DNA from: Apostichopus japonicus
Taxonomy: Eukaryota; Echinodermata; Holothuroidea; Aspidochirotida; Stichopodidae
Assembly: GCF_037975245.1 (NCBI RefSeq)
Contig: NC_092577.1
Location: 19,776,898 to 19,840,897 of the forward strand
DNA: 64,000 nucleotides
Reading direction: 5' to 3'
Shown here: positions 2,425-57,348 of the stretch, piece by piece
How the letters are laid out: every line of letters begins with the position of its first letter
Numbering within the stretch: the stretch's first letter is position 1
Position numbers and translations under genes: made by a program
The notes under the pieces: model-generated
Told to the model about the DNA's origin: nothing
The model's input: the letters and a program-made list of their open reading frames with translations, nothing else
The model's database searches: none

Positions 2425-3055
2425 CGATTTTTTTTTGGGTGCGCGTACACTCGATCTATCCTGGAGGCATCTTCTCCGTTAGGCCTCACCCACGTATACA
2501 CCGTACTACACGGGTGCATATGCCTCCAGACATCGGCTAAAAGGTGTGCCGAAGTGAATCTGATCTCAGCGTCAGGACTAGCAAACACAGAAAGCCCCGA
2601 GTCTGTCAAGACCCGAGTCTGGGACACAGTTAAAGTCTCCGACCATGACACATGGTGCACTACCAGGAACAAGGGAAGGCAGCGTGTTAAAAAAATTCTC
2701 GTCTAGCAGAAGGCCGATTGGGAGCATACACATTGCAAAGGGAGATGTTACCCTGTGGATACTTGAAAAGAATGCAAACCAATCGGCCCTCGTGATCCGT
2801 CTCCACCCTAGTGGCACAACCCGCCTGACGAGTTGACAGGAGGATGACAGTGCCACAAGATGAACACAAAGCATGCAGCCCACCACCCCACTCATAAGCC
2901 CATAGAGGGACATCTTCTTCCAAAATAGGTGTTTCTTGCAGGCAAACGCAGTCGACCACCATTGAAATACAATATTGGAAAATGCGACTGCGCTTGCGAT
3001 GATCCCTCATGCCATTGACGTTGAAAGTGGCAACTGAAAATGTATGGGCCAATGG
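2425..3055 (-). pseudogene. LINE ORF2 fragment, AP endonuclease domain
   Basis: This is the N-terminal apurinic-like endonuclease of a LINE ORF2, which nicks target DNA to prime reverse transcription. Motifs in order on minus are VATFNVNGMRD (N-terminal catalytic Asn), CLQET (Glu), NVYAPN, VGDFN (Asp/Asn) and SRIDRVYAH. The frame changes at about 2710 and again at about 2665, so it is not translatable as one protein. It breaks off after RVYAHPKK at about 2425, so the reverse transcriptase is missing. The upstream neighbour on the same strand is ORF1 of the same element. The motif set fits the L1/Tx1 group. Confidence 0.8.
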
Positions 3056-4010
3056 GGCAAAACTACGCCGACGACGATTCTGTAAGCATCAAGCGCGCTC
3101 TAGACGACATATCGATGTCGGAGTCGTCACTTGAGGCCGACCTTTTCAGAGAGGGTTCCCCCATCTCGTCGTACCAGCTCGTCCCAGTGGCACGTTTCGG
3201 CTCGACGATCACCGAGCCTCCGGAGTCGCTGTCAGACACAGCCTCCGGAGACCCGACGACCTCGTCGTCGTCACAGAGTCTCCGGATCTGGCGATACCGG
3301 CGGCGGACTGGGGATGGAACTGGACGGGTTGATGGGGGAAGCTGTTGGAGACCCCGTGTCCGCTTCGCTGTGTGGTGGAGACGGTGCGGGCACGGGGTTG
3401 ATGGGGAAGCTGGTGGAGACTTTCTCGGTGCGGGCACGGGGTTGGGGTCTGCAACTACGGGGGAGGGTGAACCAGGTGCGGAAGGTATGCCCAAGACAGG
3501 CAGCGCCCACACTTTTTATTTGGGCAGCCCTTCGCTTCGTGCCCGGTCTCCCCACACCTGAAGCAGGTACGGGGCTGACCGTGATAACGCACTTTATGCC
3601 CGGCAATAAAAAGGAAGGAGGGAACGTCCTTGGGGTCGATCCGAACCTGTCGGAGCCCGTTCAACACCCCAGGGGCCTGTGCGTAGGAGCACATTGTAAT
3701 GGCCTTGACAGCCCCAAACCGACCTAAAACAGTTGCGACAAGTTCCTGACGCACGTCTACTCCTACGTGGATGACAGTTACCCCATACGGAACGTTCGTT
3801 TGGGGTAACTGTCAAACCTTCAACCCCACTCAGCAACGTGACACCCTTCTGCCGGGTCACGTCACTGGTAAAACGTAGATCATACGTATTACGGGCACAA
3901 CAACGTATTACGTGCACAGGCACAACAACACCCTTACCCTTTAAAATACTAAAAACTTGCACCGGTGGAACCGCTGGTTCACCGGTGAAGGTGAACTTAT
4001 AAATTTTGGA
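3056..4010 (-). pseudogene. LINE ORF1 (gag-like, zinc knuckle), subfamily A2
   Basis: This is a remnant of the RNA-binding ORF1 protein of a Tx1/L1-like LINE. On minus, the N-terminal block (QVFSILKGKGVVVPV, about 3960) is followed by VTLLSGVEGLTVTPNERSVW, a fold resembling an RNA-recognition motif (ATVLGRFGAVKAI), and one clear CCHC zinc knuckle, CFRCGETGHEAKGC (about 3570-3530). A proline- and serine-rich C-terminal part runs to 3063. Several frame changes break it. It is similar in order to the better preserved ORF1 at 21.5-22.7 kb but clearly diverged, so I treat it as a separate subfamily. The same subfamily recurs at 20.7-21.3 kb. Confidence 0.7.
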
Positions 4011-4229
4011 ATCACGGCGCGATGCTATGACACCGAAGTGGCTAGGCCACAGAGGAGTAACAAAAACAAACTAAGGACAGGTTTAAACTTAAAACGATAT
4101 ACGATAACTATATATAATATACGCACACACCCGCCTGGCGGGAAGTATAGCACAGTACAGTAAAGTGAAAAATTGGCTGTTATCAGATGTAGAGCGAGAG
4201 CGAAAAACACGTCTGCACTCCACGAAAAC

Positions 4230-4684
4230 CAACTACCAACTGTTGTTGTTGTTTGCCGCTGTCATCAGGAGACACATCTGGAACAGCAGACGCCGCCTAG
4301 TTTTCGATGGGGACGTTTCGAGGGCAGAGGATGTTGTCCCCCTTGTGCAAAGTGACATTAGGTTGCGCATGGAGGCGGACCATGCACGGCTTCCCGACAC
4401 TGCCTTTCGTAGACGCTGGCGCAAGCCTGTCGTCTACTATCGGGACGGCGTTCCCGGATGAAATTTGGAGTGAGTTAGTTGGTAGGTCTGGGGGTTGTGT
4501 GGTCGTTACATAATATAGGTTGGTTTTTATTTTTGTGGTTTGGGGTTGGCTTTTTGGGGCCGGTTTGTAGTGTTGTCTTTGTTTTGCTTCTGTTGGCCTT
4601 TAGGTCCGTGTCCTTTTCGCGTCACATTAAACGCTGCGTTAGTGAGAGATTTGTTTGTGGGTGTCCGAAGCACGTAAAAAGCAC
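4230..4684 (+). pseudogene. LINE ORF2 C-terminus and 3' untranslated region
   Basis: The frame from about 4234 to 4461 encodes the end of a LINE ORF2, containing FDGDVSRAEDVVPLVQSDIR and RRWRKPVVYYRDGVPG. The same block, with few changes, is at the end of the open frame at 25,863-26,747 on minus. The following 220 bases match the 3' regions at 22.8-23.1 kb and 25.6-25.86 kb (minus) and end in CACGTAAAAAGCAC. There is no poly-A tail. It is a 3' segment only; the reverse transcriptase is absent. Confidence 0.7.
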
Positions 4685-9779: not shown

Positions 9780-11407
9780 TGCAAGGCATCTGGCCCACCC
9801 TCCTCTTTGATTCTACGAAGTGAGTCACCAATCTGAGTATACACCCCCGAAGGGCGTGTCGCCTTTGGCCGGTTATTGGAAAAGGATCCGGGCCAGTGGT
9901 GTCGAAAAAGAGACCCACCCAGAACCTAACAAAAAAAGGCAAAGGGAAACGAACGATTCTCAAACGCAACGAAAACACCTTTCAAAGGAGAAAGCGCAGT
10001 TTAGATAGAAGGTGGACCAAACCAAGCCCACCGCTCAAGGGTATCTTTTACAGAACGGTCCTTTTGACAAGGTTTGGTTTGCGCTTTCCCCAAATGAAAT
10101 CAAAAATGATCGATCACCGTACCAGGATACCAAAGGAGAGGAAGAATAAAACGATTAACAACTGTAACCTTCCCAGGGAGGAAGAGCCACCTCCGACTGA
10201 ATGTGTCGAGCCTTGCCTCCACCTGATCAGTCTTCTCGGCCCAAGTGGTGGCCTCCGGGGCACCATAACGTAGCCAGATGCCATTTACCCTGATCATGAC
10301 ATCTGACCAAGTAGCATCGAATGGGAGGGATTGGCCACGCCAACCTCCTTAACGCACCCTTTTGGTCTTGGACTTGTTAAGTCTGGCACCAGTAGCCTCT
10401 TGGAAGGTGGCCAAAACCTTCGATAAAGACTGGAAGGAGGCGAGGTCCTACACAATACAAGTGATGTCATCGGCATATTGCACGCTTGTAACTCTAGCCC
10501 CACCCGGTTCATTGAAGGGTTGAAAACCCAAGCATCTGTCCAGCGAGGTACTGAGCGTTTCGCTGAAGAGAACATACAACAACGGGGAGAGGGGACAACC
10601 CTGACGGACTCCCCTTCGAACCGGGAAGGGACCAGAAGTTAATCCGTTAACATTGTCCATGCTCGAGACCTCCTTATATAGTAACGAGACCCAACGAATA
10701 AACACTGAGTTCAATCCGAAGGACTCCGAAGGATCTACCATGTCAAAGGCCTTCTCCTGGTCCAAGGAGACCAGTGCACATGGCAAATCACAAACTTTAA
10801 CAAACTTGATCAAGTCTCTCATCAACCAGAGGTTATGTCGAATACACTTGCCTTGCACAGCACAAGTCTGGAGAGGACCTACAATATCCGGCATCACATC
10901 CGCTAAGCGATGTCCTAATGCTTTGGCCAGGATTTTGTAGTCCACAGTTGACAGCGTTATTGGACGCCTATTTGGGTCCAAAGGGTCTCCCGACTTTGGG
11001 CGGAGAACAATATTTCCAACCCGCTGTGTTTGGCCTTATGTAATTCAACTGGAAAGAGGTAGCGAACACGTCTCTCAAGTCCCCACCGAGAACCTCCCAG
11101 AAGGTCCTATAGAACTCAGCAGGGAGGCCATCGAGACCGGGGGACTTTCCCTTCATCGCTGCTACCGCTGTCAAGAGCTCACCAACGGAGAGATTCGAAC
11201 CCAAGCTATCGTTTTTACTATGAGGGGGTGGGGGGGGGCCTTGTCTATACCAGACAACAAGTCTTCCTGGAGATCCTCGCTAACAGCAGCCCTGGAGTAC
11301 AGTTTCGAAAAGAACGACCTAAATACCTCAGATGGATAGTGACCTGACTTAGCGTGTGTTGTTCGCAGAATTGACGTTGTGTTTATGAAGGGTGCACAAT
11401 CGTACAA
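9780..11407 (-). pseudogene. LINE ORF2 fragment with reverse transcriptase
   Basis: On minus, colinear frames give the upstream linker (SFFSKLYSRAAVSED), then GKSPGLDGLPAEFYRTFW (motif 1, about 11,150), then RRPITLSTVDYKILAKAL, SLDQEKAFDMVDPS (motif A with catalytic Asp), VRRGVRQGCPLSPLLYVL (motif B) and SVQYADDITCIV (motif C, both Asp present), then a weaker thumb region to about 10,100. The best open frame is 10,448-10,981, broken before and after by frame changes. The 5' end is cut at about 11,407 and the 3' end near 9780. It lies inside the TTAA element, so it inserted there after that element. The motifs fit an L1/Tx1-type reverse transcriptase. Confidence 0.8.
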
Positions 11408-14159: not shown

Positions 14160-15806
14160 CGCTTTTTACGTGCAAAGAAAACGGACACGGACCAAAGGTC
14201 AACAGAACCAAAAACAATCCCAGTCTGTAAAGCAACCACCTGTAAAACAACCACCAAAAACCCAACTGAAACCCACAAATACAAATCTCTCACTAACGTA
14301 GCGTTTAACGTGACGTGAAAAGGACACGGACCCAAAGGCCAACAGAAGCCAAACAAAAACAAACACTCCAAACCAGAAGACAGAAAAAAAAACATTATGT
14401 AACGACCACACAACCCCACACCTAACAACTCAGTCAAAATTTCATCCGGGGAACACCGTCCCGATAGTAGACGACAGGCTTTTAGGGGGTACCCCTCATC
14501 CCATTCATATTAAGGGTGACGAGGGATAAGGTGTCCGGTGCCATTACCTGCGATGTTTTCCCAATACGGGTCTTTTCAGGTACCTAGCCGTGTTCCCCCT
14601 TTTCCTACGAGCGAACAGAGTTCTTAGCTCCTCGTCAACATTGATCGAGTGTACCTGTCAGGAACAGGAGGTCCACTAGCGACCATCGTGTCCGGTATAG
14701 CGGAAGCGACTGCTGGCAGGGTGGAAGGAGTCAATGAGTTGAGTGGCCTGTTGTCTCATCAAACCAATCTGAGGACCCCTTAGCCGCAACTACTAAGGCT
14801 GTAGTGCAGTCTGGGCCACTCGATGTCCCTTGTGCCAGTTGACTCGGGGCCCGCCGTTTTGTCCGCCTCATTGGGCAGAATGGCAGTCTCGGCAACATTG
14901 TTCAAGGACGAGGTGGGACACGAAAGGGGCTGAAAGCCTCCACCGGGGCGCTAGTGTCGGACACTGGGGCGATCAACGGAGCATCAGGTGATACGGTGTC
15001 ATAGGACGGGACGGGGAGCGCTTCAACCACGCCCGTAGCCACTCTCGCGGCGTATGAGCGGTCTGGGCATAAACGGGCGAGATGGCCCGTTTTCCCGCAC
15101 GAGTTGCATACGATGTCCCCTTTTACACTCGGCCAGGGTATGCCCAACCTGTAAACAGCGGCTACACCGCTTGTTCGGGCACAACCTGGCCTCATGCCCT
15201 TCCAGCCCACACCTCCAACAAGTGCAAGGTTGGCCCGGGTATGCAATGTGGGCCCTGTGCCCATTAGCCCACAAGGTAGAGGGGATATCGGACTTCAGCT
15301 CGACTTTAACTCGTCTAGTCCCGGTCTTGACATCCTTACATTCAAGGAATTCCGGCTCCTCGTAGCCGGTCATTTTCCCAAAACACCCGTTTAGACATGT
15401 CCAGAGGGAGGTGAAGGACTGTCACACACACCGAACTGTCATACGGTGTGACCTTCAGTCCCTCAACTCCCTCCAACACCTGGACACCTCCGACGCGAGC
15501 AGCCTTCCAGGTGAACCGAACATCAATAACATTCATACCCCGGAGCGCGTCAACCTCTCCAGGGACCTTCAAACCAACAGTACGCAAAACTGAAAAAACT
15601 TGTCCAGGGACGACCTTAGCCTCCCCCGAAAAACTCAACAATATGATTTTGCTAGGGGTGTGGCAAGCCACGCACCTATACGAAAAACAAAACAACGAAA
15701 GAAAACCAAAACGCCCAAACAAACTACAAAACAGTGTGTGGTCAACGAAAAGTGGAGAGCAGCCGAAAACACGTCCGCACTCCACGAAAGCAAACTACAA
15801 CTATAG
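14160..15806 (-). mobile_element. Internally deleted LINE with ORF1 only, copy 1
   Basis: On minus the copy starts at the shared 5' signature near 15,806, carries ORF1, the first 20 or so codons of ORF2 (from ATG at 14,544, reading LVTLNMNGMR), and then jumps at about 14,480 to the last codons of ORF2 (VVYYRDGVPRMKF) and a full 3' region. The flanking direct repeats TGCAAGAAAAATGTG (14,145-14,159) and TGCAAGGAAAATGTG (15,807-15,821) differ by one base and look like a target-site duplication. Endonuclease and reverse transcriptase are absent. The layout is like mammalian HAL1 elements, which keep only ORF1 of L1. Confidence 0.7.
14600..15670 (-). pseudogene. LINE ORF1 (gag-like) of copy 1, frameshifted
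   Basis: The N-terminal part (15,342-15,785 frame) reads through SFSGEAKVVPGQVFSVLRT and VEGLKVTPYDSSVCVTVLHL. A frame change follows near 15,360. The next part has CWRCGLEGHEARLC, then CSRCLQVGHTLAEC, and in another frame CNSCGKTGHLARLC, so all three CCHC knuckles are present but split over frames. The serine- and proline-rich C-terminus follows to about 14,600. Compared with the ORF1 at 21.5 kb it lacks that copy's early TAG codon but has more frameshifts, so it is a dead gene. Confidence 0.75.
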
Positions 15807-20308: not shown

Positions 20309-20603
20309 GTGCTTTTTACGTGATCCGCCATGCGGGATACAAAACGTCACGGCCAAACGGCACTACCGAACCATCCCATTCTGAAAAACGAAACTCAGGT
20401 CAAGCGAGCCAAAAAACAACATACGCCCGCCGACCTGCAGCGACAAAAAACGCCCAACACCCCCCCCCCCCACAGAAACATTCAAAAACTACAAAAGGAC
20501 GACCCGCACGCAGCGAAACGAAAAACCCCTCCCCAGCACACCACCGTCCAAAAAAGGCAGCCCCAGATAAACGGCGAAAATCGCCTTCAACTTGAAGGCG
20601 AAT
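20309..20603 (-). mobile_element. LINE-B 3' end only, with target duplication
   Basis: This 295-base copy has only the 3' untranslated region of family B. It runs from the terminus GTGCTTTTTACGTG (minus-strand end) to just past the perfect hairpin CGCCTTCAACTTGAAGGCG at 20,582-20,600. The direct repeat GTGCACGTG at 20,303-20,311 and 20,604-20,612 fits a target duplication that overlaps the element's own GTGC end. It is a strongly 5'-truncated insertion, and a poly-C run lies inside at about 20,461. Confidence 0.65.
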
Positions 20604-20689
20604 GTGCACGTGTATGTCCATGTAAGCATAGCGTAAGCAAGAACTTCCCAGTTCAGCATCAAAAGTGCAAGACCTAGGTAATGAGAAGC

Positions 20690-21291
20690 GGGGTATGCAA
20701 ATGATGGCCTTTACCGCGCTGGAGAAAAAAATCTTGCGACTGGGATAACGCACGTGAGCTTTGTGCCCGGCAATAAACAGGAAGGAGGTACATGTCCTGC
20801 TTTAGGTCGATCCGAGCCTGTCGGTGCCCGTTCAATACCCTAGGGGCCTGTGCGTAGGAGCACATTTTGCCAGCCCTCACAGCCCCAAACCGACCTACAG
20901 CAGTTGCGACGAGTTCCTGACGCACCTATAGTCCTGCGTGGATGATAGTTACCCATACGGAACGCTCGTATGGAGTAACTGTGAAACCATCGACATTTAC
21001 TCAGTAGCGTGACACCCTTCCGCCGGGTCACGTCACTGGTAAGCCGTAAGTCATAGTGTTACGACCATGGAGAGCCTGCAAAGCATCAACCTCTCCAGGA
21101 ACCGCAGCACCCTTACTTTTCAATATGCTAAAAACTTGCACCGGTGGAACGGCTTGTTCACCGGTAAAAGTTAACAATACAATAACAATAAAGTTAACAA
21201 TAAAACTTAACAATACGGCTACCACGGCGCGACGCCATTATACCGCAATGTGGCTAGGCCACGGAGGAGCAACAAAGAAACAAAACCAAAC
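20690..21291 (-). pseudogene. LINE-A2 ORF1 fragment
   Basis: Colinear frames on minus give QVFSILKSKGAAVPGEVDAL (about 21,140), then the RNA-binding-like part (RQELVATAVGRFGAVRAGKM, about 20,925), then ARIDLKQD, and decay before any zinc knuckle. It is closest to the ORF1 at 3.06-4.01 kb. Its upstream untranslated region continues at 23,143-23,338 beyond an inserted ORF1-only LINE, so the two pieces were once joined. The 3' part of the element is missing. Confidence 0.6.
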
Positions 21292-23142
21292 CAAACAAAT
21301 TCAGTTCAGTTCTCGTGGAGTGCGGACGTGTTTTCGGCTGCTCTCCACCTTTCCTTCACCACACCTTTATTGTGTTTTTACGTTGGTTCTTCATTAGTTT
21401 AGAGTTTGTTTTAGTGTAGTTTGTGTGTTTTGGGTTTGTTTCGTTTTGGTTTGTGTATAGGTGCGTGGCTTTGCCACACCCCTAGCTGTCATGGCGGCTC
21501 GCCGTGACAGCAAAATCGTATTGTTGAGTTTTTCGGGGTAGGCTAAGGTCGTCCCCGTACAAGTTTTTTCAGTTTTGCGTTCTGTTGGTTTAAAGGTCCC
21601 TGGAGAGGTTGACGCGCTTCAGCGTAAACCTCTCCGGGGTATGAATTGTTTTGATGTACGGTTTACCTCGGAGGCTGCCCGCGTCCGAGGCGTCCATGTG
21701 TTGGAGGGAGTTGAGGGACTGAAGGTCACACCGTATGACAGTTCGGTGTGGGTGACAGTCCTCCATCTCCCTCTGGACATGTCTGAACAGGTTGTTGTGC
21801 GGACACTGGGGCGTTTTGGGAAAGTGACCAGCTACGAGGAGCCGGAATTCCTTGAATGTAAAGGTGTCAAGACCGGGACTAGACGAGTTAGAATCGAACT
21901 CAAGTCCGATATCCCCTCTACCTTGTGGGCTAATGGGCACAGGGCCCACATTGCATACCCGGGCCAGCCTCGCACTTGTTGGAGGTGTGGGCTGGAAGGG
22001 CATGAGGCCAGGTTGTGCCCGAACAAGCGGTGTAGCCGCTGTTTACAGGTTGGGCATACCCTGGCCGAGTGTAAAGGGGATATCGTTTGCAACTCGTGTG
22101 GGAAAACGGGCCATCTCGCCCGTTTATGCCCAGACCGCTCATACGCCGCGAGAGTGGCTACGGGCGTGGTTGAAGCGGTCCCTGTCCCGGCCTCTGACAC
22201 CGTACCACATGATGCTCCTGTCATCGCCCCAGTGTCCGACACTAGCGCCCCGATGGAGGCTTTGTTCCCCCTTTCGTGTCCGACCTCTCCCCTGATCGAA
22301 CTTGCCGAGACTGCCAGCCTGCCCACTGAGGCAGAGCAGGACAAAACGGCGGAGATGGTACTAGCGGAGTGGCACGCGGCGCAGGATGCCGCTTGTACTG
22401 GTTCATCGGTAGCTACGCCCGCTATCGGTGATACTAGTCGGGCCCCGAGTCAACCGGCCCAAGAGACATTAAGTGGCCCAGATTCTGACTCGCCAATGGA
22501 GGACTGCACTACAGCCTTATTAGTTGTGGCTAAGGAGTCCTCCGGTTGGTTTGATGAGACAAAACAGGCCACTGATCTCATTGACTCGAGTGGCCCTTCC
22601 ACCCTACCCGCAGCCGCTTCCGCTATACCGGACACGATGGTCGCTAGTGGACCTGTTCCTGACAGGGAGGTCCACTCGAACAAGGTTGACGTTAAGAACT
22701 GTGCTCCCTCGTAAGAAAAGGGGGAATACTGTTAGGGGCTTGAAAAGACCCGTATTGGGAAAATTTCGCAGGTAATGCGCAAGCCTGTCGTCTGCTATCG
22801 GGACGGCGTACCCCAGATGAATTTTGGAGTTAGTTAGTTGTTATGTGTGGGGTGGGGGGTTTGTGTGGTCCTTACATAATATGGGTTGGGGGTTTTCTGT
22901 TTGTGGTTTGGTGTTGGCTTTTTGGGGCTGGTTTGTGGAGCATTGTTTTGGTTCTGTTAGCCTTTGGGTCCGTGTCCTTTTCACGTCACGTTAAACGCTA
23001 TATTTTATACATTTGTGGGTTAGTGAGAGATTTCTGTTTGTGGGTTTTCAGTTGGGTTTTTCGTGTTTGTTTAACAGACTGGGATTGTTTTTGGTTTTGT
23101 TGACCTTTGGTCCGTGTCCGTTTCTTTGCACGTAAAAAGCAC
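21292..23142 (+). mobile_element. Internally deleted LINE with ORF1 only, copy 2
   Basis: This 1,851-base insertion lies between direct repeats ACAAAACCAAAC (21,280-21,291 and 23,143-23,154), a target-site duplication. It splits the 5' region of a minus-strand LINE-A2 fragment. It contains the 5' signature (TCGTGGAGTGCGGACGTG from 21,313), one long ORF1, then at about 22,775-22,780 a direct jump from the ORF2 start codon region to the last ORF2 codons (AAGCCTGTCGTCTGC), a full 3' region, and the terminus CACGTAAAAAGCAC. No endonuclease or reverse transcriptase is encoded, so it must have been mobilised in trans. Confidence 0.75.
21491..22714 (+). CDS. LINE ORF1 protein with three CCHC zinc knuckles
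   Basis: This gag-like nucleic-acid-binding protein would package LINE RNA. The natural start is probably the ATG at 21,491, but TAG at 21,539-21,541 (GAG in copy 1) interrupts codon 17. From 21,542 the frame is open for 390 codons. Domains in order are an N-terminal block (LKVPGEVDAL), an RRM-like fold (VTVLHLPLDMSEQVVVRTLG), then knuckles CWRCGLEGHEARLC, CSRCLQVGHTLAEC and CNSCGKTGHLARLC, and an acidic, Ser/Pro-rich tail. Apart from the one nonsense codon it is intact, far better kept than the other ORF1 copies here. Use of a downstream start after the TAG is possible but unproven. Confidence 0.75.
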
Positions 23143-23338
23143 ACAAAACCAAACTAATCACAGTAAAGCAAGAACGATATGTTGTATGACCAACAACAAA
23201 AAACGCCTGTAGCACACATGCACGTACTAACAGAAATGAACACGCCCGCCTAGCGGGAGGCACAGTACGGTATAATACTATCTAGAAGCTGTAGTAAATG
23301 GAGAGCGAACACGTCCGCACGCCACGAAAGCCAACTAC
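23143..23338 (-). mobile_element. LINE-A2 5' untranslated region, separated piece
   Basis: The sequence resembles 4,080-4,225 (CGCCCGCCTAGCGGGAGGCA against CACCCGCCTGGCGGGAAGTA) and ends at the 5' signature CACGTCCGCACGCCACG (23,308-23,324). It continues the A2 fragment at 20,690-21,291 after removal of the inserted ORF1-only LINE and one copy of the duplication. There is no coding sequence. Confidence 0.6.
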
Positions 23339-25593: not shown

Positions 25594-26557
25594 GTGCTTT
25601 TTACGTGCTAAGAAACGGACACGGACCAAAGGTCAACAAAACCAAAAACAAACCCAGTCTGTAAAGCAACAACTGAAACCCATCAATCTCTCACTAACGC
25701 AGCGTTTAACGTGACGCGAAAAGGGCACGGACCCAAAGGCCAACAGAAGCAAAACAAATAAAACACTACAAACAGGCCCCCAAAAGCCAACCCCAAACCA
25801 CAAAGAGAAAAATTCAACCAACCTATAATATGTAACGACCACACAGCCCCCACACCTACCAACTAACTCACTCCAAATTTCATCCGGGGAACGCCGTCCC
25901 GATAGTAGACGACGGGCTTGCGCCAGCGTCTACGAAAGGCAGTGTCGGGAAGCCGTGCATGGTCCGCCTCCATGCGCAACCTGATGTCACTCTGCACGAG
26001 GGGGACAACATCCTCTGCCCTCCAGACGTCCCCGTCGAAAACTAGGCGGCATCTGCTGTTCCAGGTATGTCTCCTGGTGACAGCGGCAAACAACAACAGC
26101 AGATCCCTAACCCAGGTTGGGCACACAGGGGGCAACAAACCATACAAAACAAAATCACTACTAATGGCCCACTGTGTGCAACCAATAACGAAGGCGTGAA
26201 ACCAATCCCACACCAACCGGACAAAGGGACACTCCAGCAAAAGGTGTTGCATAGTCTCGATGGCTTTACAGCCCACACGGGGACAAATCCCATCACCTAA
26301 TCGCCACCTGACTAGGCGAAAATGGTTAGTGATGAGGACCCCATGTGCAATCCTCCACGCCAAGTCCCTGAGACGGCTATCTAGTGACTTGCAACACACA
26401 GACCGCCACACATCTGGAGAGATGGCGGTCCGGCAAGCCGACGGGCACACAGGCGCGAGCATTGAACGAAACAATGGTGGGTATAACACAGAGAGGGCCA
26501 CGAAGGGAAACGAAAGATTTTCAAAAGCAACAAAAACACCTTTCAAGAGGAGAAAGC
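25594..26557 (-). mobile_element. LINE-A1 3' fragment inserted in the LINE-B hairpin
   Basis: On minus the fragment ends at 25,594 with GTGCTTTTTACGTGC (the shared terminus), preceded by a 3' untranslated region and the ORF2 C-terminus. GGAAATCGCCTTC stands at 25,581-25,593 on one side and is present three times on the other (about 26,558, 26,576 and 26,596). Those 13 bases are the left arm of the LINE-B hairpin, so the fragment inserted into that arm and the target sequence was duplicated. It is 5'-truncated. Confidence 0.65.
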
Positions 26558-26747
26558 GAAAATCGCCTTCAAAGAGGAAATCGCCTTCAGAAAGAGGAAA
26601 TCGCCTTCGAATTTGAAGGCGAATGTGAGACTTCACCGCCTCCAGGACTGCCTGCCAACTGGCAACCTTCCCCCTAAAAACCACATGACATCTATTCCGC
26701 CAAACATGTTTTTTCACAATAGAGCAAACAAAAATAATGCGATGCAA
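25863..26747 (-). pseudogene. Chimeric open frame of two LINE ORF2 C-termini
   Basis: A 294-codon open frame joins LINE-B ORF2 C-terminal sequence (VKKHVWRNRCHVVFRGKVAS, residues about 12-31) to LINE-A1 ORF2 C-terminal sequence through a short spacer of repeated EGDF units encoded by the target-site repeats. The A1 part includes a zinc-binding motif of reverse-transcriptase C-termini, CPRVGCKAIETMQHLLLEC, and ends in RRWRKPVVYYRDGVPRMKF. The two halves are homologous (RNRCHVVFRGKVASWQAVLE against NSRCRLVFDGDVWRAEDVVP). The fusion is an accident of insertion; no reverse transcriptase core is present, so I do not expect a function. Confidence 0.7.
26543..26622. repeat. Three-copy repeat of the insertion target
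   Basis: The unit GAAATCGCCTTCA occurs three times at a spacing of 18 and 20 bases (26,558, 26,576 and 26,596) and is followed by the other hairpin arm GAAGGCG (26,615-26,621). The first two copies are extra relative to LINE-B at 17.9 and 20.6 kb. They mark the 5' junction of the A1 insertion. Confidence 0.6.
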
Positions 26748-26985
26748 TACAGCAACCGAACAAACTGGAGGGTCTACCCCATATAATATAAAGCCCTGTC
26801 CTACCGACCATGAACGGTCTCCTGTTACACGGTCGGTCCAGGTCTGGAACCACTCCCATAAGTTTAAAACAAAGCAACAATGCCAAAAAACTTAGCGGTA
26901 CTCTCTAAGCTGTCACAGCCGGTCCTTGGGCACAGTCCATCACCCAATCGCCAATGATACCTTTTAAGGTTGGTCACCAAGGCAT

Positions 26986-29215: not shown

Positions 29216-30023
29216 TTGAAACATAGCAGTGTGATAATGACAGCCTATAGTGGGAGTAAAATACATCACTATGGTGGTATCCATTGTTTGGATTGTGCAT
29301 ACGAGAATGTAATCATTAGAACTGAATTTTATGTGGTAGACGTAGATGGTCCAGCTATACTTGGTCTAAAGTCATGTCTAAATTTCAAATTGATAACACT
29401 TCACTGCGGTGTCGGCCTGAAGTCATTTGATATTCACGATATTGACGATGTTAGAACAAAATATGCCGACAGGTTCGAAGGTATTGGCAAATTTAAAGGT
29501 GATTATCATATCGCAGTTGACAAGTCATTTCCACCTGTTGTTCATGTTCCACGTAGGTGTCCTATCCAAATCAAGGACGATATCAAAAAAGAGATAGATG
29601 ATATGGTATCTATGGGTGTAATTGAACCAATCACTGAACCGACAGATTGGGTATCCAGCATAGTTTATTGTCGTAAACGAAATGGTAAATGGAGAGTTTG
29701 TCTTGATCCAAAAGATTAAAACAAAGCTATTAAAAAAACTCATTACCATACACCCACCTCTGAAGAGATTACCCATAAGTTAGCCCAAAGCACAGTATTC
29801 TCAAAATTAGATGCAAAACATGGATACTGGGCAGTTTCACTGGATGAGGACTCCAGTAGATTCACAACGTTCAGCAGTCCTTTCGGTCGTTATTATTTCA
29901 AACGATTGCCATTCGGACTATGTTTAAGCCAGGATATTTTTCAAATGAAAATTCAACAACAATTCTAGAGCTCTGTCCTGGCACCATAGGAATTTCAGAT
30001 GATTTGTGTATTTGGCAAAACGG
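29216..30023 (+). pseudogene. Gypsy protease end and reverse transcriptase, first part
   Basis: The frame 29,216-29,719 contains the second protease motif (AILGLKSCLNF) and the start of reverse transcriptase (IKKEIDDMVSMGVIEPITEP, then KRNGKWRVCLDPKD). A stop at 29,717-29,719 interrupts it. The next frame continues with FSKLDAKHGYWAVSLDEDSS (motif A with catalytic Asp) and FKRLPFGL, then after a frame change SDDLCI, in the catalytic region of motif C. At 30,023 the LINE insertion begins. The order fits Ty3/Gypsy pol. Confidence 0.75.
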
Positions 30024-30132
30024 TCAATGGCGCTGCACTGGTGGCGACGCAGCTCGTATCGTATCGTCTTCTCTGAAATTTTACCCATTTCATCATGCAA
30101 TACTGTTCTTACGTCTCATTTCCTGTTGCAAT

Positions 30133-30906
30133 ATGGATCTATCCGTACTTTTCACCGTTTTATGTGTTTTATTAATCGTTTCATCGTCTGGTTTGTGTCA
30201 AAGTAGGGATTTTTTGACTCACACAACTCACAGTCATCGGCCTATGCAGTATACGGCATCTCAACTACGCTCGATTAAGCCTAGGCCTGGCCACCTTGCC
30301 GAAGAACTGCTGAACATGGAACTACCTGGTGAAATGAAGAAAAGAAAACGAGGGAAAGCAGGGGGAGTAAGGAAGAGACTCAATGCCCGTAAGTTTAAAC
30401 CATACCTACCGTCGATCATTATGGGAAATGTACAGTCGCTGAATAACAAAATGGATGAATTACACAGCTGTATGAGTTATACGCGGGAATTCAAACACAT
30501 TAGTATGATGTCCTATACAGAGACCTGGCTCAATGGATCTATTCCTGATAGCTGCGTTGATATTAATGGTTTTACACTTATTCGGGGAGATAGGGACCCG
30601 GAGCTATCACAGAAACAGAAAGGAGGGGGACTTTGTCTTTACGTGAATGAACAATGGTGCCACCCCAATCACGTTACATTGAAGCATTACTCATGTTCGA
30701 CGAATGCCGAAATTCTTGCAGTAGGACTGCGGCCGTACTACCTCCCCAGGGAATTCTCCCATGTGATTCATCTTACAGTGTATGTCCTCAACCGCAATGT
30801 CGCCACCCCTGCTGCTAACGAGCTATGTACTATCATACAAGACCTTGAGATAGCACATCCCAATGCCTTCATGGTAATTGATGGCGACTTCAATCATTGT
30901 AGTTAG
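30133..30906 (+). pseudogene. LINE endonuclease domain with hydrophobic N-terminus
   Basis: The frame from ATG 30,133 starts MDLSVLFTVLCVLLIVSSSG, which looks like a signal or membrane segment, then a basic region (KKRKRGKAGGVRKRLNARKF), then endonuclease motifs GNVQSLNNKMDEL, TETWL, LRPYYLPREFSHV and MVIDGDFNH. It stops right after the GDFNH motif, where sequence jumps to the reverse transcriptase, so the last third of the domain is lost. The hydrophobic start is unusual for a nuclease-polymerase protein. Confidence 0.7.
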
Positions 30907-32143
30907 ACAGTACCGACACTTTGGAAAAGTTCGTGTATCATTCCGATCCCTAAGAAAAACAAATGAATGACCTTCGACCTGTTGCTCTGACTTCAGTGGC
31001 AATGAAAACGTGTGAACGTCTGGTCCTGAGGCATCTAAAACCAATGGTTGATCAGTTTCTAGACCCCATGCAATTCGCCTATAGGTCGAACCGGAGTACA
31101 GAAGATGCAATCCTATATAGTCACTGTATTCTCATTTAGAGCACACCACCTTGGGTAACTCAGTCCGTATACTGTTCTTTGACTTTTCGTCAGCCTTCAA
31201 TACTATACAGCCCCATATCCTTGCCAACAAACTTCTGGAAATGAATGTGCAATGTGATTTTATTAATTGGATACTTAACTACCTCACAAACAGGCCCCAG
31301 TATGTTTCCATAAGGTCATCGGGTTGTAATTCTGACGTCATCTTCTCGAATACAGGAGCACCCCATGGTACGGTTCTGGCCCCATTCCTTTTCACTCTCT
31401 ACACAGCAGATGGCAGGTCATCTGCCGAGAGTTGTTCTCTCGTCAAATTTGCAGATGACACTGCCCTGATTGGGTTGATGACGAAAGATGATGACACCCA
31501 GTACATTGAGCAGATAAGAGATTTTGAGAAATATTGTGAGAGTAACTTCCTGGTTTTAAATGTTGATAAAACAAAGGAAATGGTAATAGATTTCTGTAAG
31601 TGTGGGGCTATCCCGAGTCCTGTCCGTATTAAAGCCCATGATGTTGAGCGTGTGGATCACTATACATACCTAGGGGTTGTACTTGATAATTCCTTGTCCT
31701 GGCATAGCCATGTTGATGCCACACTGAAGAAACTTAACTCTAGAACACTACCTGCATAAAATAAAAACTTTTCAAATTGATGAACGTATTCTGACCATGT
31801 TTTATACTTCCACCATTTGTGGGGTATGGAAATACAATTTGATTTCTTGGGGCGCGGGAATGCGAGAAAGGAAGATCAGAACCGTATAGACTCTTTAATC
31901 CGTCAGGCGGGCCGCATAATTGGCAACAGCCAACCCTCTTACTCATCAAGTTATACCCATCTACTCCAACAGAAATTAGACAAGATTTTGGAGGATGCTG
32001 ACCACCCACTGCATGGACAATTTCAGAATGCAGTGTTTCCTCGGAGCGGGAGGATGAGGCTGCCGACAGGCAAAACCAATCGTCACCTCTCCTCATTCGT
32101 CCCACAGTGCATCAGAATCCATAATCAAAATTACAATCGCTAG
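30907..32143 (+). pseudogene. LINE reverse transcriptase and C-terminal domain
   Basis: Colinear frames give VPTLWKSSCIIPIPKKNK, then NDLRPVALTSVAMKTCERLV and QFAYRSNRSTEDAILY (30,970-31,130), then ILFFDFSSAFNTIQPHIL (motif A), TGAPHGTVLAPFLFTLYTAD (motif B) and VKFADDTALIG (motif C, both Asp present) in the open frame 31,151-31,759. After a break at about 31,760 the C-terminal part has IDSLIRQAGRIIGNSQPSY and ADHPLHGQF to a stop at 32,143. The pattern matches the Rex/CR1 group. At least three breaks inactivate it. Confidence 0.8.
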
Positions 32144-36344: not shown

Positions 36345-38790
36345 GTCAGTGTGAATTAGATTAGCTGATCATTTCTGAATAAATTCAAGAGGAGCTTTGT
36401 TTTAGAGTCAATATGTTATAGCACATCATGTGTATAAGATTATGTGGACGGTCCACATAATCCGCTCGTACACTTACGATTATATATTCCAATTGAGATT
36501 ACGTGTGTTACAGAAAAAAAAAAGACGTTAATACTTCTATATGAATATATTCAATACATTCAATACAAATGATTTAAACAGATCTACGAGTTCGGTAAAT
36601 ACAGGATATAAAACAGACCCATATTTGACGGGTTGATTCTTTACTGAATCTGTCGATATTTGGTGCGGGGTCTTTCCTAAGAACGGTTATTTTGAATTAA
36701 TAGAGTTGATAAATGTTATGCCCTAATTTTGGTTTATAATATGAAATGTGTATAAGATTATGTGGACGGTCCACATAGTCTACTCGTACACCTACGATTA
36801 TATATTCCAATTGAGATTACGTGTGTTACGGAAAAAAAGACGTTAATACTACTATAGGAATATATTCAATACATTCAATACACATGATTCAAACAGATCT
36901 ACGAGTTCGGTAAATACAGGATATAAAACAGACCCATATTTGACGGATTGATCCTTTACTGAACCTGTCGATATTTGGTGCGGGGTCTTTCCTAAGAACG
37001 GATATTTTGAATTAATAGAGTTGATCAATTTTCAACCCTAATTTTGGTTTATAATCAATGAAAAATACAATGAAATGTGTATAAGATTATGTGGACGGTC
37101 CACATAATCCGCTCGTACACTTACGATTATATATTCCAATTGAGATTACGTGTGTTACAGAAAAAAAGGACGTTAATACTACAATATGAATATATTCAAT
37201 ACACATGATTTAAACAGATTTACAAGTTCGGTAAATACAGGATATAAAACAGACCCATATTTGACGGGTTGATTCCTTACTGAATCTATCGATATTTGGT
37301 GCGGGGTCCTTCCTTTGAACACAGTTGTTTTGAATAAATGTAGTTGATAAATTTTAAGCCCTAATTTTGGTTTATAATCAATAAACAATATAATGAAATG
37401 TGTATAAGATTATGTGGACGGTCCACATAATCCGCTCGTACACTAACGATTATATATTCTAATTGAGATTACGTGTGTTACAGAAAAAAAAGAGGTTAAT
37501 ACTACTATATGAATATATTCAATACATTCAATACACATGATTCAAACAGATCTACGAGTTCGGTAAATACAGGATATAAAACAGACCCATATTTGACGGA
37601 TTGATCCTTTACTGAACCTGTCGATATTTGGTGCGGGGTCTTTCCTAAGAACGGATATTTTGAATTAATAGAGTTGATCAATTTTCAACCCTAATTTTGG
37701 TTTATAATCAATGAAAAAATACAATGAAATGTGTATAAGATTATGTGGACGGTCCACATAATCCGCTCGTACACTTACGATTATATATTCCAATTGAGAT
37801 TACGTGTGTTACAGAAAAAAAGGACGTTAATACTACAATATGAATATATTCAATACACATGATTTAAACAGATTTACAAGTTCGGTAAATACAGGATATA
37901 AAACAGACCCATATTTGACGGGTTGATTCCTTACTGAATCTATCGATATTTGGTGCGGGGTCCTTCCTTTGAACACAGTTGTTTTGAATAAATGTAGTTG
38001 ATAAATTTTAAGCCCTAATTTTGGTTTATAATCAATAAACAATATAATGAAATGTGTATAAGATTATGTGGACGGTCCACATAATCCGCTCGTACACTAA
38101 CGATTATATATTCTAATTGAGATTACGTGTGTTACAGAAAAAAAAGAGGTTAATACTACTATATGAATATATTCAATACATTCAATACACATGATTCAAA
38201 CAGATCTACGAGTTCGGTAAATACAGGATATAAAACAGACCCATATTTGACGGATTGATCCTTTACTGAACCTGTCGATATTTGGTGCGGGGTCTTTCCT
38301 AAGAACGGATATTTTGAATTAATAGAGTTGATCAATTTTCAACCCTAATTTTGGTTTATAATCAATGAAAAAATACAATGAAATGTGTATAAGATTATGT
38401 GGACGGTCCACATAATCCGCTCGTACACTTACGATTATATATTCCAATTGAGATTACGTGTGTTACAGAAGAAAAGGACGTTAATACTACAATATGAATA
38501 TATTCAATACACATGATTTAAACAGATTTACAAGTTCGGTAAATACTGGATATAAAACAGACCCATATTTGACGGGGTGATTCCAACCTGAAACATATCA
38601 AGATATGAGGGTGTGTAGCCCTTATTCAGAAGACCATTATTGTGAATTAATGTAGTTGATTAATTTTTAATATTTTTAATTACGGTTTTAGTTATAATCA
38701 ATTAACAATACAACATCATACGTATAATATAATGTGGACGATCCACATAAACCGATTATACCGATTATACAATTATGATTATATATTTCA
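36345..38790. repeat. Satellite array with 654-base dimeric unit and central palindrome
   Basis: The 23-base palindrome ATTATGTGGAC-G-GTCCACATAAT begins at 36,439, 36,757 (one change), 37,086, 37,409, 37,740, 38,063 and 38,394. Spacing alternates 323 and 331 from the third copy on, so the true period is 654. The block from 37,086 repeats almost exactly at 37,740: the open frames at 37,179-37,388 and 37,833-38,042 have identical products. Each monomer also has GAGATTACGTGTGTTAC, TTCGGTAAATACAGGATATA and ATATTTGGTGCGGGGTC blocks. Array edges are more diverged. These frames are not believed to be genes. Confidence 0.9.
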
Positions 38791-49377: not shown

Positions 49378-49475
49378 TGGAGACAGGTAAGCTCGTCACT
49401 CGTAAATATCCAAACCAGTAAGTTTTGGAGTATTTACTTCGCTCCTCGCTTACCTGTCTCGCCACAACCTTAGCA
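49378..49475. repeat. DIRS internal complementary region
   Basis: It carries GAGACAGGTAAGC, then ACTCGTAAATATCCAAACC, AGTAAGTTTTGGAG, then TATTTACTTCGCTCCTCGCT and TACCTGTCTCG. The first half is complementary to the left outer end (from 48,569) and the second to the right outer end (to 55,210). It overlaps the last codons of the recombinase ORF. In DIRS elements this region templates completion of the termini and circle formation. Confidence 0.85.
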
Positions 49476-50567
49476 CCGAGTGGCACTGCCCGATGGTGGG
49501 AGGCCCGAGGGGTGGGACCTAATACCCGCCGGACCTCGCATCACCGCGCTACAAAACGCCGTCTCAGCCTGTAGAGAGTCCGAAAGGTAGCAGGTAACGA
49601 ATGTTGTTGGCGTTCGCCAGGCTGCTGCCTTGAGAATGTCCTCCACTGGGACTCCCGCAAAAAGGGCTGTTGAGGCCGCTACTCCCCTGATGTCGTGGGC
49701 TCTCGGTGTACTTGTGCCGGTTGTAAACGGGCGGATGATCTCCGCCAGCCATCGGGAAATGGTGTCTTTGGACGCCGCTGAATAAGGTGCTCTCGGTAAG
49801 ATGAACAAGGTCGTGGTTGTTCCTCTAAGGTGTTGGGTCTTGTTTAGATACCATTTGAGAGCTCGGACTGGGCACCACAGTTTATCCTCTGCGATTGAAG
49901 AGAGGGATTTTATTTCGGTGATAAAAATGTCCCCCGGCAGGAAGGATAGGACCTGGTTTTTGGCTAGGAAGGCCGGATCGGGGACCATTCTTACCCCGTG
50001 GTTCTCGAACCTGATATGGTTCTGTTTGGTGGAGAGAGCGTGGAGACAGCTTCTTCTTCTTGCTGACGCCAGAGCGATCAGAAATAGCGTTTTCTTTGTA
50101 AGAGATGCCAGCGAGGCTGAGGCCATGGGTTCGTACGGCGGTTTGGTGAGTGTTGGCAGCGCTGCTGATAAATTCCACGAGGGCGCGAGTCGCCTGATTC
50201 GGGGGCGTCTGTTCGCCATCCCCCTGATGAGCTGGGAGATGTCCCTGTTGCTGCCTGGGGTGGACCCATCTGCAAACCCACGATGTATAGCGGTAATTGC
50301 CGACCTGTAGTTCTTGATGGTCGACACTTGCTTGCCTTCCTCGAAGAGGGAGTGAAGGAAGTCTACCACCTGTGCCAAAGAGGTTTCGGATGGCAGTACC
50401 TGTCTGTTGTGGCACCATTCCCCGAACTTGCGTAGTCGGGAATCGTAAGTAGCAACGGTTGTTGCCCTCCTGGCGTCGGCCGCGATCGCGGCAGCCGCTT
50501 CCGAAAAGCCCCTCTGTCGAAGGGAAGTCCTGACAACTTCCACGCAACTAGTTGTAGCCCTTTGATG
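49470..50567 (-). CDS. DIRS tyrosine recombinase (ORF3)
   Basis: This recombinase inserts the circular DNA copy into the genome. The open frame extends upstream to 51,287, but the part before about 50,567 is a shadow of ORF2, so the start is uncertain. In the 605-codon frame an N-terminal core-binding part (TYDSRLRKFGEWC, VDFLHSLFEEGKQVSTIKNY) is followed by the catalytic domain: Arg in ALASARRRSCLHAL (about residue 411), His-X-X-Arg in AHDIRG (531-534), Trp in AAAWRTP (557), and the nucleophile Tyr in FVTCYLSD (567). All expected residues are present and there is no stop. Its end runs into the internal complementary region. It overlaps ORF2 in another frame, typical of DIRS. Confidence 0.85.
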   Translation of the reverse strand, partial: HQRATTSCVEVVRTSLRQRGFSEAAAAIAADARRATTVATYDSRLRKFGEWCHNRQVLPSETSLAQVVDFLHSLFEEGKQVSTIKNYRSAITAIHRGFADGSTPGSNRDISQLIRGMANRRPRIRRLAPSWNLSAALPTLTKPPYEPMASASLASLTKKTLFLIALASARRRSCLHALSTKQNHIRFENHGVRMVPDPAFLAKNQVLSFLPGDIFITEIKSLSSIAEDKLWCPVRALKWYLNKTQHLRGTTTTLFILPRAPYSAASKDTISRWLAEIIRPFTTGTSTPRAHDIRGVAASTALFAGVPVEDILKAAAWRTPTTFVTCYLSDSLQAETAFCSAVMRGPAGIRSHPSGLPPSGSATRC

Positions 50568-52428
50568 TCTGGGTGGATGAGGGTCCCCCGTCTTTGGGAC
50601 AGCAGATGGGGCGTGTCCGGTAGGATCGCTGGGGTGTCCATTAGAAGTTGTAGGAGCTCCCCGAACCATGGTCTGCGGGGCCAGAAGGGGGCTATCAGTA
50701 TGACTCTTCCTCTGGAGTGGCGGATCTTTCTCAGGACCTGGCCGATCATGCAGAGCGGCGGGAAGGCGTAAGCCTCCAGATTGTTCCATGGGAAGGACAT
50801 GGCGTCGATGTGGTGCGCCCTGGGGTGGAATTGTCTGGAGCAAAAAATCTGGAGTTTGGTGTTCTCCGCCGTCGCAAACAGGTCCACCATTGGTTTGCCG
50901 AAGATTTCGAAGATCCTGTTGCATGTTTTCTGGGACAGTGCCCACTCGTTTGGGTCCATCTGTCCTCTGGATAGAGCATCGGCCATCACATTTAGTTTTC
51001 CGGCGATGTGGGACGCTCGTAATGTCGTTCCGGAGTCCTTGGCTGTCATCAGGACTTCCCAGGTCAGCTGGCATAACCTCTCGGAGTGAGTACCCCCCTG
51101 TCTGTTTATGTACGCTACCACGGTGGTATTGTCCGTGAAGACGGTGGTTACTGTATTTTTCAGGTGTTCGTGGAACGACTCTAGGGCCCGTTTGACAGCC
51201 AACATCTCTAGTGAGTTGATGTGCCATGACTTTTCTGCTGTGGACCACGTCCCCCAGGCTGTCAAGTTCTTTCAGTGGGCTCCCCACCCTGTCAGTGAGG
51301 CGTCCGTCGTGACCGATGTGTTTGGCAAACTGGTGGTGAAGGGGACCCTTGGTCCCAATTGCCTGTGTCGTGCCACCATTGTAGATGGGGGGTGATGTCT
51401 TCCGATCGGCGGATCGGCGCTGTCTGGTCCAGGGTTAGCAGGTTGGCCGTTTTCCGCAGGTGGAGTTGCAGCGGACGCATGCGTAGTCTGCATAATGTCA
51501 CCACGTCGACCAGGCTGGACATTAGCCCCAGGGCTCGGAGCCACGTTCCTGTGGGTGACTCTTGTGACGATATGATCTGGGCTGTGGCCGCTCTGACTGC
51601 CTCTATCCTTTGTTCTGAGGGACTGGCTATGCCTGTGGTGAAGTCTAGTTTGGCCCCCAGGAACTGGATCGTCTGTGTTGGTGTTAGCTGGGATTTTGTT
51701 TGATTGATTATCCAACCCAGTTCCTGAAGGGTCTGCACCGTTTTCTGTACGTTATGTGCCGCGCTGGACTTCGACTCTCCTACTATGAGCCAGTCGTCGA
51801 GGTAGGCGTACAGCGTTACTCCTTGTTTCCTGAGGTAGGCGATTACCGTTCCTGCCACTCTTGTGAAGACTCTTGGTGCCGTAGATGTAAATCTCCTTCC
51901 GGCGTATTGGAAGGCTAGGTACCGCTGGTGACGTGGGTGTATTGGTATATGTAAGTAGGCGTCCTGTAGGTCTACGCTTGCCGCCCACATGCCCTTTCTG
52001 AGCAGGGGTAGGATTAAATTTAGGGTCTCCATACGGAAACGTTTTGGTTGTACGTAATTTTTGTTGAGGGGTTTTAGGTTCAAGATCGGGCGCCAAGATT
52101 TGTCCCGTTTTTGTGTTAGAAACAGGGAGGAGCGGAAGAGGGGTCCCGCCTCTCCCGACACCTCTACAATTGCCCGCTTTGCCAGCAAGGCTGATACTTC
52201 CCCTTCTAGTGCTGCTTGTTAGACGGGGTCGGTGGGTATTGGAGTAGGTCTTCCCCCCTCCCCGGAGGGCGGGGCGGAGGTGAACTCTATTTTGTACCCT
52301 TGTGAGATCGTCTCCAATACCCACTTGTCCCCGCCCAAAATGTCCCATTGCTGGGTGAAAAGTGACAGTCTCCCCCCCACCTGCGGCGTTGCCGTGGTGA
52401 GGTGGGCACCCCTAGGGCCGGGCGGCAA
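50363..52428 (-). pseudogene. DIRS reverse transcriptase and RNase H (ORF2), broken
   Basis: On minus the start region (RLSLFTQQWDILGGDKWVLE) is cut by a TAA at 52,219. Reverse transcriptase follows in 52,188-51,292 with SWRPILNLKPLN, SVDLQDAYLHIPI (motif A), STAPRVFTRV (motif B) and LYAYLDDWLIVG (motif C, YLDD). A frameshift near 51,355 leads to RNase H (VTTDASLTGWGA), a TGA near 51,274, then HINSLEMLAV, FTDNTTVVAYINRQGG and MADALSRG, and a C-terminal region to 50,363. So one frameshift and two stops break it while all catalytic motifs remain. The breaks could be recent mutations, or the TGA and frameshift sequencing errors. It overlaps ORF1 and ORF3. Confidence 0.85.
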
Positions 52429-54451: not shown

Positions 54452-55070
54452 GACTGAAAAACCCCGGTTAAGGAAGAAAAAATGTAACAAAACGATAGGA
54501 GAGGGGGAGCTAAAAGGGGGGAGAGAAGCAATAAGAACTGTGGGAAAACACACTAGGCTTAACACCGTGCCTCGGCTAGAGGCCCGCGGCTTACAATGGT
54601 AACAATTAGGCCTAAGCCGACCCACAAGGTCTAACTAACTAGCAAGTTATTTAAACGAAGGGCAGGGAGGAGAGAAGGCAACGAAATAACGAAAATAACG
54701 AATAATGAAGGCAGGAGAAATAAAGTGAACAACAAAAAGTGAACAACTAAACAGTGGGTGAGGGAAAAGCGTGATAGCGTGTGTAGCCTAAAAAGGCGGG
54801 AACTAGCGTAACTACGGTAAACAAATCGCAGAACTGCTACCCACGCAAGTTTTCAGCACAGAAAAAACGGCGCGAGCGCCGCTAACAAAAACCAGCCCTA
54901 AAAAACCTCCCAAGAATAGGAAAAGGATACTTATCGGGCTGCAACGGTTAGAAATGCTTCAGCAAACAGTAGGTGGAAAAAATTTCAGATTCTAGGTACC
55001 AAAATTGGACAGAAATCGATGGAATAATATCCGCTCGAAAAAAAACGATGTAGACGCTTTGGTTGGTAGA
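54452..55070. other. DIRS 5' untranslated region
   Basis: Between the ORF1 start and the right terminal repeat. AT-rich with AACGAAAATAACGAATAATG-type words at about 54,682-54,705. The promoter is presumably in or near the right terminal repeat; no clear core motif is seen. Confidence 0.5.
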
Positions 55071-57114: not shown

Positions 57115-57348
57115 GGCCGCGAGACCGAAGGTCCGCGAGACCGAAGGTCCGCGAGACCGAAGGTCCGCGAGACCGAAGGTCCGCGAGACCGAAGGTCCGC
57201 GAGACCGAAGGTCCGCGAGACCGAAGGTCCGCGAGACCGAAGGTCCGCGAGACCGAAGGTCCGCGAGACCGAAGGTCCGCGAGACCGAAGGTCCGCGAGA
57301 CCGAAGGTCCGCGAGACTGAAATGAAAAGAGGTCCGCAAGACCGAAAC
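57115..57348. repeat. GC-rich 16-base minisatellite, about 13 copies
   Basis: GGTCCGCGAGACCGAA repeats about thirteen times with almost no variation to 57,320, followed by one diverged unit at 57,331. Each unit has the inverted pair GGTC/GACC around CGCGA and is CpG-rich in AT-rich surroundings. Because 16 is not a multiple of 3, long open frames occur on both strands, but they are artefacts of the repeat. Confidence 0.9.

Follow-up and report, generated by a model that had tools for sequence, protein, structure and literature searches.

An ORF1-bearing LINE copy without its ORF2 body: member of an ORF1-only family or product of an individual loss?

A LINE copy that retains both ends and ORF1 and has lost the body of ORF2 could belong to a replicating family of such elements or could have lost ORF2 on its own. 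The question is raised by one such element (copy A) in the 64 kb stretch of DNA considered here in its entirety (hereafter, the window), which contains no N, presents a GC content of 42% and, to judge from its retroelements, looks like part of a repeat-rich animal genome. In the reading favored here, to which a probability of about 0.55 is assigned, the ORF2 body of copy A was lost during the making of that individual copy or later, independently of a second such copy, B. The features considered are listed in Table 1.

Table 1. Features of copy A and of related LINE copies in the window
Feature	Positions	Strand	Basis and remarks
Copy A, LINE without ORF2 body	21292-23142	+	Bounded by duplications; 5' and 3' motifs; homology to B, C and D
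Left target-site duplication of A, ACAAAACCAAAC	21280-21291	+	Exact 12/12 match to 23143-23154
Right target-site duplication of A	23143-23154	+	Exact 12/12 match to 21280-21291
ORF1 of A, three CCHC knuckles, in-frame TAG at 21539-21541	21491-22714	+	Translation; PF00098
ORF2 start codon of A, final bases of left parent	22775-22777	+	Alignment to B
Final 19 ORF2 codons of A, fused to start codon	22778-22834	+	tblastn with ORF2 end of copy C
ORF2 stop codon and 3' UTR of A, ending CACGTAAAAAGCAC	22835-23142	+	Alignment with B, C and D; 3'-end motif
Copy B, second ORF1-only copy	14160-15801	-	Homology; ORF2 start kept at 14544-14482, tail from 14481; outer limits approximate
Copy C, 5'-truncated, retains ORF2 C-terminus (zf-RVT), inside another LINE (G)	25594-26565	-	Left limit approximate
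Hairpin GTAGACG...CGTCTAC at ORF2 end of copy C; tip corresponds to right breakpoints of A and B	25905-25933	-	Folding energy
Copy D, 5'-truncated, retains ORF2 C-terminus	4238-4684	+	Alignment, 3'-end motif; left limit approximate
Copy E, second related family: 5' end, ORF1, ORF2 endonuclease start, then broken	2440-4237	-	Limit near 2440 by eye
Copy F, second family, split by A: 5' and 3' ends, part of ORF1	20309-23335	-	5' limit approximate

Copy A, its insertion site and its relatives

Copy A is flanked by a 12-base target-site duplication that is identical at all 12 positions and carries both ends of a LINE, as the first-pass annotation had proposed, with its 5'-end and 3'-end motifs recurring at other LINE copies in the window. 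The 5' UTR holds TCGTGGAGTGCGGACGTGTTTT, also seen at three further places with up to three mismatches; at this threshold, the 22-nt 5'-end motif was thus found four times, as compared to 0.01 occurrences expected from shuffles. At the other end, copy A terminates in CACGTAAAAAGCAC, a sequence also found at six further LINE ends, with a single mismatch in two of these. The 14-nt 3'-end motif was detected eight times with up to two mismatches (0.44 expected), with seven of the eight matches being counted as LINE ends. The remaining match (at 42636, with two mismatches) was taken as a chance occurrence rather than a LINE end. Moreover, copies A and B are 82% identical over an alignment of 1,044 nt (E 0.0), such that copy A does not reflect a chance resemblance.

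Once joined, the sequences flanking copy A read as one uninterrupted 5' UTR belonging to a minus-strand LINE, copy F, and can be aligned through the insertion site to the 5' UTR of copy E. Copy A is therefore a nested insertion in the 5' UTR of copy F. Copy E reads through the site without an insert (an 8-nt gap adjoins the site) and so provides a homologous unfilled site, which makes the case for insertion stronger than the short A-rich duplication would by itself. Both signs of LINE insertion by target priming, namely, a target-site duplication and an unfilled homologous site, were hence observed.

The fusion of the ORF2 start region to the last codons of ORF2, likewise noted earlier, was borne out. 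The junction (GCAGGTAATG/CGCAAGCC, at 22777/22778, with one base being ambiguous) joins the ORF2 start codon to the last 19 codons of that ORF. The right side encodes RKPVVCYRDGVPQMNFGVS, which in a tblastn comparison is 84% identical over 19 amino acids to the end of ORF2 in copy C, while the continuation of the left parent is visible in copy B (ATGGCACCGGACACC..., MAPDTLSLVTLNMNGMRG) and, by eye, resembles the start of an endonuclease. The parental sequences overlap by 1 nt at the junction, which points to no mechanism. As such, copy A presents an internal deletion joining the 5' and 3' regions of one LINE, as in the elements termed SIDEs, and a HAL1-like anatomy in which ORF1 (with one in-frame stop) and both ends are kept and ORF2 is lost. 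When used as an 18-nt query, the junction matched 2 viral and 16 prokaryotic contigs, with none of the 18 matches extending beyond 24 nt there; these were considered chance matches. Within the 3' UTR of copy A, an internal duplication of some 105-110 nt, 74% identical, was noted at 22894-23140, with pieces also matching within copies B and C.

ORF1 opens with an ATG at 21491 and closes with a TAA at 22712-22714. Its description as nearly intact with three CCHC knuckles was correct as regards the knuckles, with three CX2CX4HX4C motifs being recognized by eye and PF00098 (zf-CCHC) matching with an E value of 7.5e-7, and not as regards intactness. Codon 17, GAG in copy B, is TAG in copy A, so that translation from the first ATG would yield only 16 residues; beyond the TAG, 390 codons are open. 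In copy B, ORF1 is shifted by indels and its start region is missing. A search of solved structures returned 22 matches, the best being to zinc knuckles of retroviral nucleocapsids (E 0.0016 and weaker), and ORF1 of copy A matches copies E and F at an amino-acid identity of 42-48%. Protein relatives of ORF1 were also sought in viral and prokaryotic contigs, where 3 and 26 pattern matches, respectively, were obtained and none was confirmed, although such collections say little on absence.

That copy A derives from a LINE with ORF1 and an ORF2 encoding endonuclease and reverse transcriptase is seen via the domains of its relatives. These include the endonuclease of copy E (PF03372; E 4.5e-5, 23.7 bits against a cut-off of 24.5), the zf-RVT domain of copy C (PF13966; E 4e-6), found in an open frame, and the reverse transcriptase of copy J (10451-11035; PF00078, E 1.5e-20), for which a short match of 56 nt (91%) provides the link to the family. 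We take the group in question to be L1/Tx1. Copy D matches the ORF2 frame of copy C at 94% of 72 residues, and in both copies the tail extends upstream of the point corresponding to the junction of copy A into genuine ORF2; neither carries ORF1. In searches of viral contigs, the reverse transcriptase protein gave three pattern matches, none of which was confirmed, and a 20-nt 3' UTR pattern gave none, a collection of viruses being one in which absence says little.

Two arrangements of these relatives were also noted. At 25866-26891 on the minus strand, copy C lies within the ORF2 of another LINE, with the two frames being fused into a single open frame of 342 codons. At 2440-4684, copies E (minus strand) and D (plus strand) meet head to head at about 4237, resembling the product of twin-priming (5' inversion), even though the two look like members of two related families.

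Loss of ORF2 in copies A and B

A 5' end is present in four copies in the window (A, B, E and F). Three of these, A, B and F, keep the 3' end and lack the ORF2 body, doing so at three different junctions and in two related families, which argues for separate losses. Copy E is broken near 2440 and hence uninformative on its own 3' side. In copy F, part of ORF1 is followed by about 130 nt of unmatched sequence at the junction, by the last part of ORF2 and by the 3' UTR; no convincing match to the unmatched sequence was found within the window. Copy B is bounded by an imperfect 20-nt duplication (17/20 by eye), and its ORF2 start codon is followed by some 60 nt reading MAPDTLSLVTLNMNGMRG... and then by the AAGCC of the tail.

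Comparison of A and B points in the same direction. Copy B retains about 60 nt more of the start of ORF2, while copy A retains 3 nt (CGC) more of its end; overall, the gaps differ by 57 nt and the right breakpoints lie 3-4 nt apart. Because the junctions differ and neither nests in the other, separate losses are again favored, as they are by the finding of A's junction, at up to three mismatches, only once in the 64 kb window. At the same time, breakpoints so close to each other could reflect a single ancestral deletion that was later reshaped. Relative to A, copy B presents 19 internal gaps, 13 of them of at least 6 nt, although these gaps are not polarised, and against such a background one more change of 57 nt is unremarkable.

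The tails of the four copies were also compared. Across the 214 columns common to A, B, C and D, the A-B distance is 0.173, while the cross-distances (A or B against C or D) range from 0.103 to 0.159 (differences: A-B, 37; A-C, 26; A-D, 22; B-C, 34; B-D, 28; C-D, 12). The A-B distance is therefore larger than the average of these four (95% bootstrap interval of the difference, +0.009 to +0.079), a further argument for separate losses. With pairwise gap removal, the A-B distance is 0.137, inside the cross range of 0.123-0.142, and in the 288 tail columns available without D, 41 A-B, 34 A-C and 41 B-C differences were counted. To judge from these alignments, the tail of A is not nearer to that of B than to those of C and D, contrary to what would be expected had A and B shared a private ancestor.

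Such a private ancestor is what the main alternative, built on the HAL1-like reading of the first-pass annotation, calls for. According to this alternative, copy A belongs to a replicating, HAL1-like family in which the transcript of an ORF2-less source with a selected ORF1 was copied by ORF2 protein supplied by full-length relatives, with copy B having diverged and its junction having changed later. The presence of two ORF1-only copies within 64 kb, with nearly coincident right breakpoints, is in line with such a family, as is the unrooted tail quartet, where four columns pair A with B and none supports a pairing of either copy with just C or just D. The closeness of C and D would produce this split anyway, yet a short branch joining A and B is possible, and the unrooted quartet is not decisive. 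Likewise, five changes absent from C and D were counted by eye in the 19-codon ORF2 remnant of A, three of which alter an amino acid. The ORF2 tails of C and D, by contrast, appear constrained (changed sites: 7/43 synonymous, 4/140 nonsynonymous; p 0.004). The excess in the remnant, however, comprises five changes only. Given also the differing junctions, the tail distance between A and B, which is not clearly below the cross-distances, and the single occurrence of A's junction in the window, an ORF1-only family seems a rather unlikely source of copy A. The HAL1-like reading thus stands for the anatomy; a family sharing one junction was not seen in the window, where A's junction is present in a single copy, that of B differs, and C and D have ORF2. 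Based on four copies, the window leans toward separate losses over one mobile ORF1-only family.

Selection on ORF1 was considered as well. In the single pair A-B, dN/dS is 0.66 over 340 codons. By region, values of 0.55 and 0.47 were obtained for two N-terminal blocks, 0.07 for the knuckle block, where 1/199 nonsynonymous and 4/62 synonymous sites differ (p 0.012), and 1.04 for the C-terminal block. The knuckle and C-terminal blocks differ in nonsynonymous (p 2e-8) and not in synonymous (p 0.29) change. From the knuckle block, and assuming no gene conversion, neutral decay of A and B together is at most about 2.4% (95% bound). Therefore, the sources in which most of the divergence between A and B accumulated seem to have had a working ORF1, and the dN/dS values suggest that ORF1 was selected in these source lineages. 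Although this is as an ORF1-only family would have it, the suggestion holds whether or not those sources also had ORF2, with full-length sources explaining the selection equally well. Gene conversion between A and B may alternatively account for the low divergence of the knuckle block.

Routes to the loss of ORF2

In copy C, the positions corresponding to the right breakpoints of A and B lie at the tip of a hairpin located 40-70 nt ahead of the ORF2 stop. At -16.5 kcal/mol, this is the lowest-energy 31-mer across 967 nt of copy C, and 10 of 6000 random 31-mers from the window reach -16.4 kcal/mol, figures to be read knowing that the hairpin was spotted after the fact, once the junctions were known, and that three junctions are involved. 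The right junction of copy F adjoins the base of another inverted repeat or hairpin (-15.0), near the end of the ORF2 of the second family. Both coincidences were counted for loss per copy. Still, 4-8% of the 31-mers in the four scanned LINE stretches fold at -10 kcal/mol or lower, copy E contains more stable 31-mers (-18.2 and -17.7) where no break is visible, and the 407 nt around the end of ORF2 present an ordinary folding energy (z -0.11), with only the local hairpin being conspicuous. The hairpin at the near-shared breakpoint is thus a lead, one that suits either a polymerase jump or deletion at a cruciform.

In the favored reading, copy A is a LINE insertion that arose when an RNA of a family with ORF1 and ORF2 in its normal members was copied by target-primed reverse transcription. 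In the first of the two routes, reverse transcriptase would begin at the 3' UTR, copy the last 19 codons of ORF2, halt inside the hairpin and resume at the ORF1/ORF2 boundary, this jump during copying being regarded as the most likely step. Taken alone as the cause of the loss, a reverse transcriptase jump is possible, if tentative. Work on R2 SIDEs refers to L1 insertions in cultured cells that carry internal deletions; for the SIDEs themselves, its authors consider DNA-level recombination likelier than a template jump (PMC3414825). Copy A was probably dead on arrival and could at most have supplied ORF1 protein, its own ORF1 now being broken.

The second choice within the favored reading is deletion in place, where a full-length LINE would have inserted and ORF2 would later have been removed by break repair, perhaps at a cruciform formed by the same hairpin. 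The many unpolarised gaps between A and B suggest that deletion is common at the locus of B. By contrast, the largest A-B gap apart from the loss of ORF2 measures 89 nt, whereas ORF2 comprises thousands of bases, and three copies would each have needed a large deletion sparing both ends. The gaps in B present no clear excess of microhomology (mean 1.08 against 0.78 at random, with 19% of random sets reaching that value). Beyond the R2 SIDEs, support comes from Hebe of the bdelloid rotifer Adineta vaga, which loses sequence via microhomology deletions (PMC2861651). Overall, deletion in place, as a share of the favored reading, is unlikely.

Retrotransposition of a spliced LINE RNA, as in SpIREs, is highly improbable. 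In copy B, one placement of the junction sets the right boundary after CAAG, that is, after an AG, and a GT is possible on the left side (by eye). For copy A, where both parents are known, neither of the two placements (GGCACC...ACGCTG or GCACCG...CGCTGG) gives a canonical GT-AG, and splicing was accordingly rejected for this copy, a result also counted for loss per copy.

A broader proposal, judged distinctly improbable, is that this LINE group sheds its polymerase gene recurrently, in two related families, via jumps of reverse transcriptase to the ORF1 region induced by a hairpin close to the ORF2 end, with some of the ORF1-only products replicating parasitically, providing an RNA-binding protein of their own while borrowing the enzyme.

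Known parallels and surrounding sequences

Internally deleted LINEs are already known (HAL1, SIDEs, HeT-A and Hebe), and copy A is a further case. HeT-A of Drosophila is the established example of a LINE with gag alone; like copy A, it lacks reverse transcriptase and has CCHC knuckles. It is an established telomeric family, whereas copy A is an insertion inside another LINE. HeT-A is described as a LINE in which a gag (ORF1-type) coding region lies between long UTRs (PMC3357415) and is listed together with non-autonomous retrotransposons (PMC3414825).

HAL1 of mammals is described as a LINE derivative that encodes ORF1 only, presents target duplications and depends on the enzymes of full-length LINEs (PMC5322556; PMC5753468), an anatomy like that of copy A, and as having arisen several times (PMC5753468). 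HAL1 is, however, a multicopy family, with nearly 2,100 human copies (PMC5322556), whereas no two copies in the window share a junction. Furthermore, ORF1 of copy A presents CCHC knuckles, while that of human L1 is reported to comprise a coiled coil, an RRM and a CTD (PMC5860796).

SIDEs, such as R2 and R2/R1 elements of Drosophila and Persaeus of Lepidoptera, are non-autonomous elements with an internal LINE deletion and kept 5' and 3' ends, like copy A, but are propagated families, while A was seen as a single junction copy in the window (PMC3414825; PMC6740152). Several origins are given for Persaeus, with microhomology, recombination and template jumping being discussed by the authors; the main text, where the term ORF1 is absent, describes no kept ORF1, which copy A retains (PMC6740152). 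Copies of Hebe are described as having intact 5' ends and as being inactivated by internal deletions, like A, yet these deletions measure 12-200 bp, most with 5-14 bp of microhomology (PMC2861651), whereas in copy A the ORF2 body is gone and the overlap is 1 nt. In SpIREs of human L1, the internal gap is likewise made before integration, although by splices within the 5' UTR or between the 5' UTR and ORF1 (PMC5860796), unlike the junction of A, which lacks GT-AG. Internal deletions described for Helena contain nothing decisive for copy A (PMC3087515).

Among the literature matches listed, comprising open-licence papers, no report of an ORF1-only family from the LINE group of copy A was recognized. 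Should ORF1-only copies prove numerous in the genome, they would represent another parallel to HAL1 or HeT-A in yet another lineage of LINEs, where one could ask why polymerase-less derivatives keep arising from some of these elements. At present, the window offers a dissected example of ORF2 loss in neighboring LINE copies with different junctions, with the hairpin being a testable lead.

The window also contains other retroelements and repeats. At 49473-54634 on the minus strand, a reverse transcriptase (PF00078) is found beside a frame with weak matches to phage-integrase SAM-like domains and a long gag-like frame, together presumably corresponding to a DIRS-type element. Another retroelement with a reverse transcriptase domain (PF00078), at 29860-31756 on the plus strand, is assumed to be a non-LTR element of a different kind. 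Finally, a tandem array of 5.6 copies of a 323-bp unit spans 36741-38575, with related pieces reaching to about 44.2 kb, and a minisatellite comprising 12.8 copies of a 16-bp unit (99% match) is located at 57117-57321.
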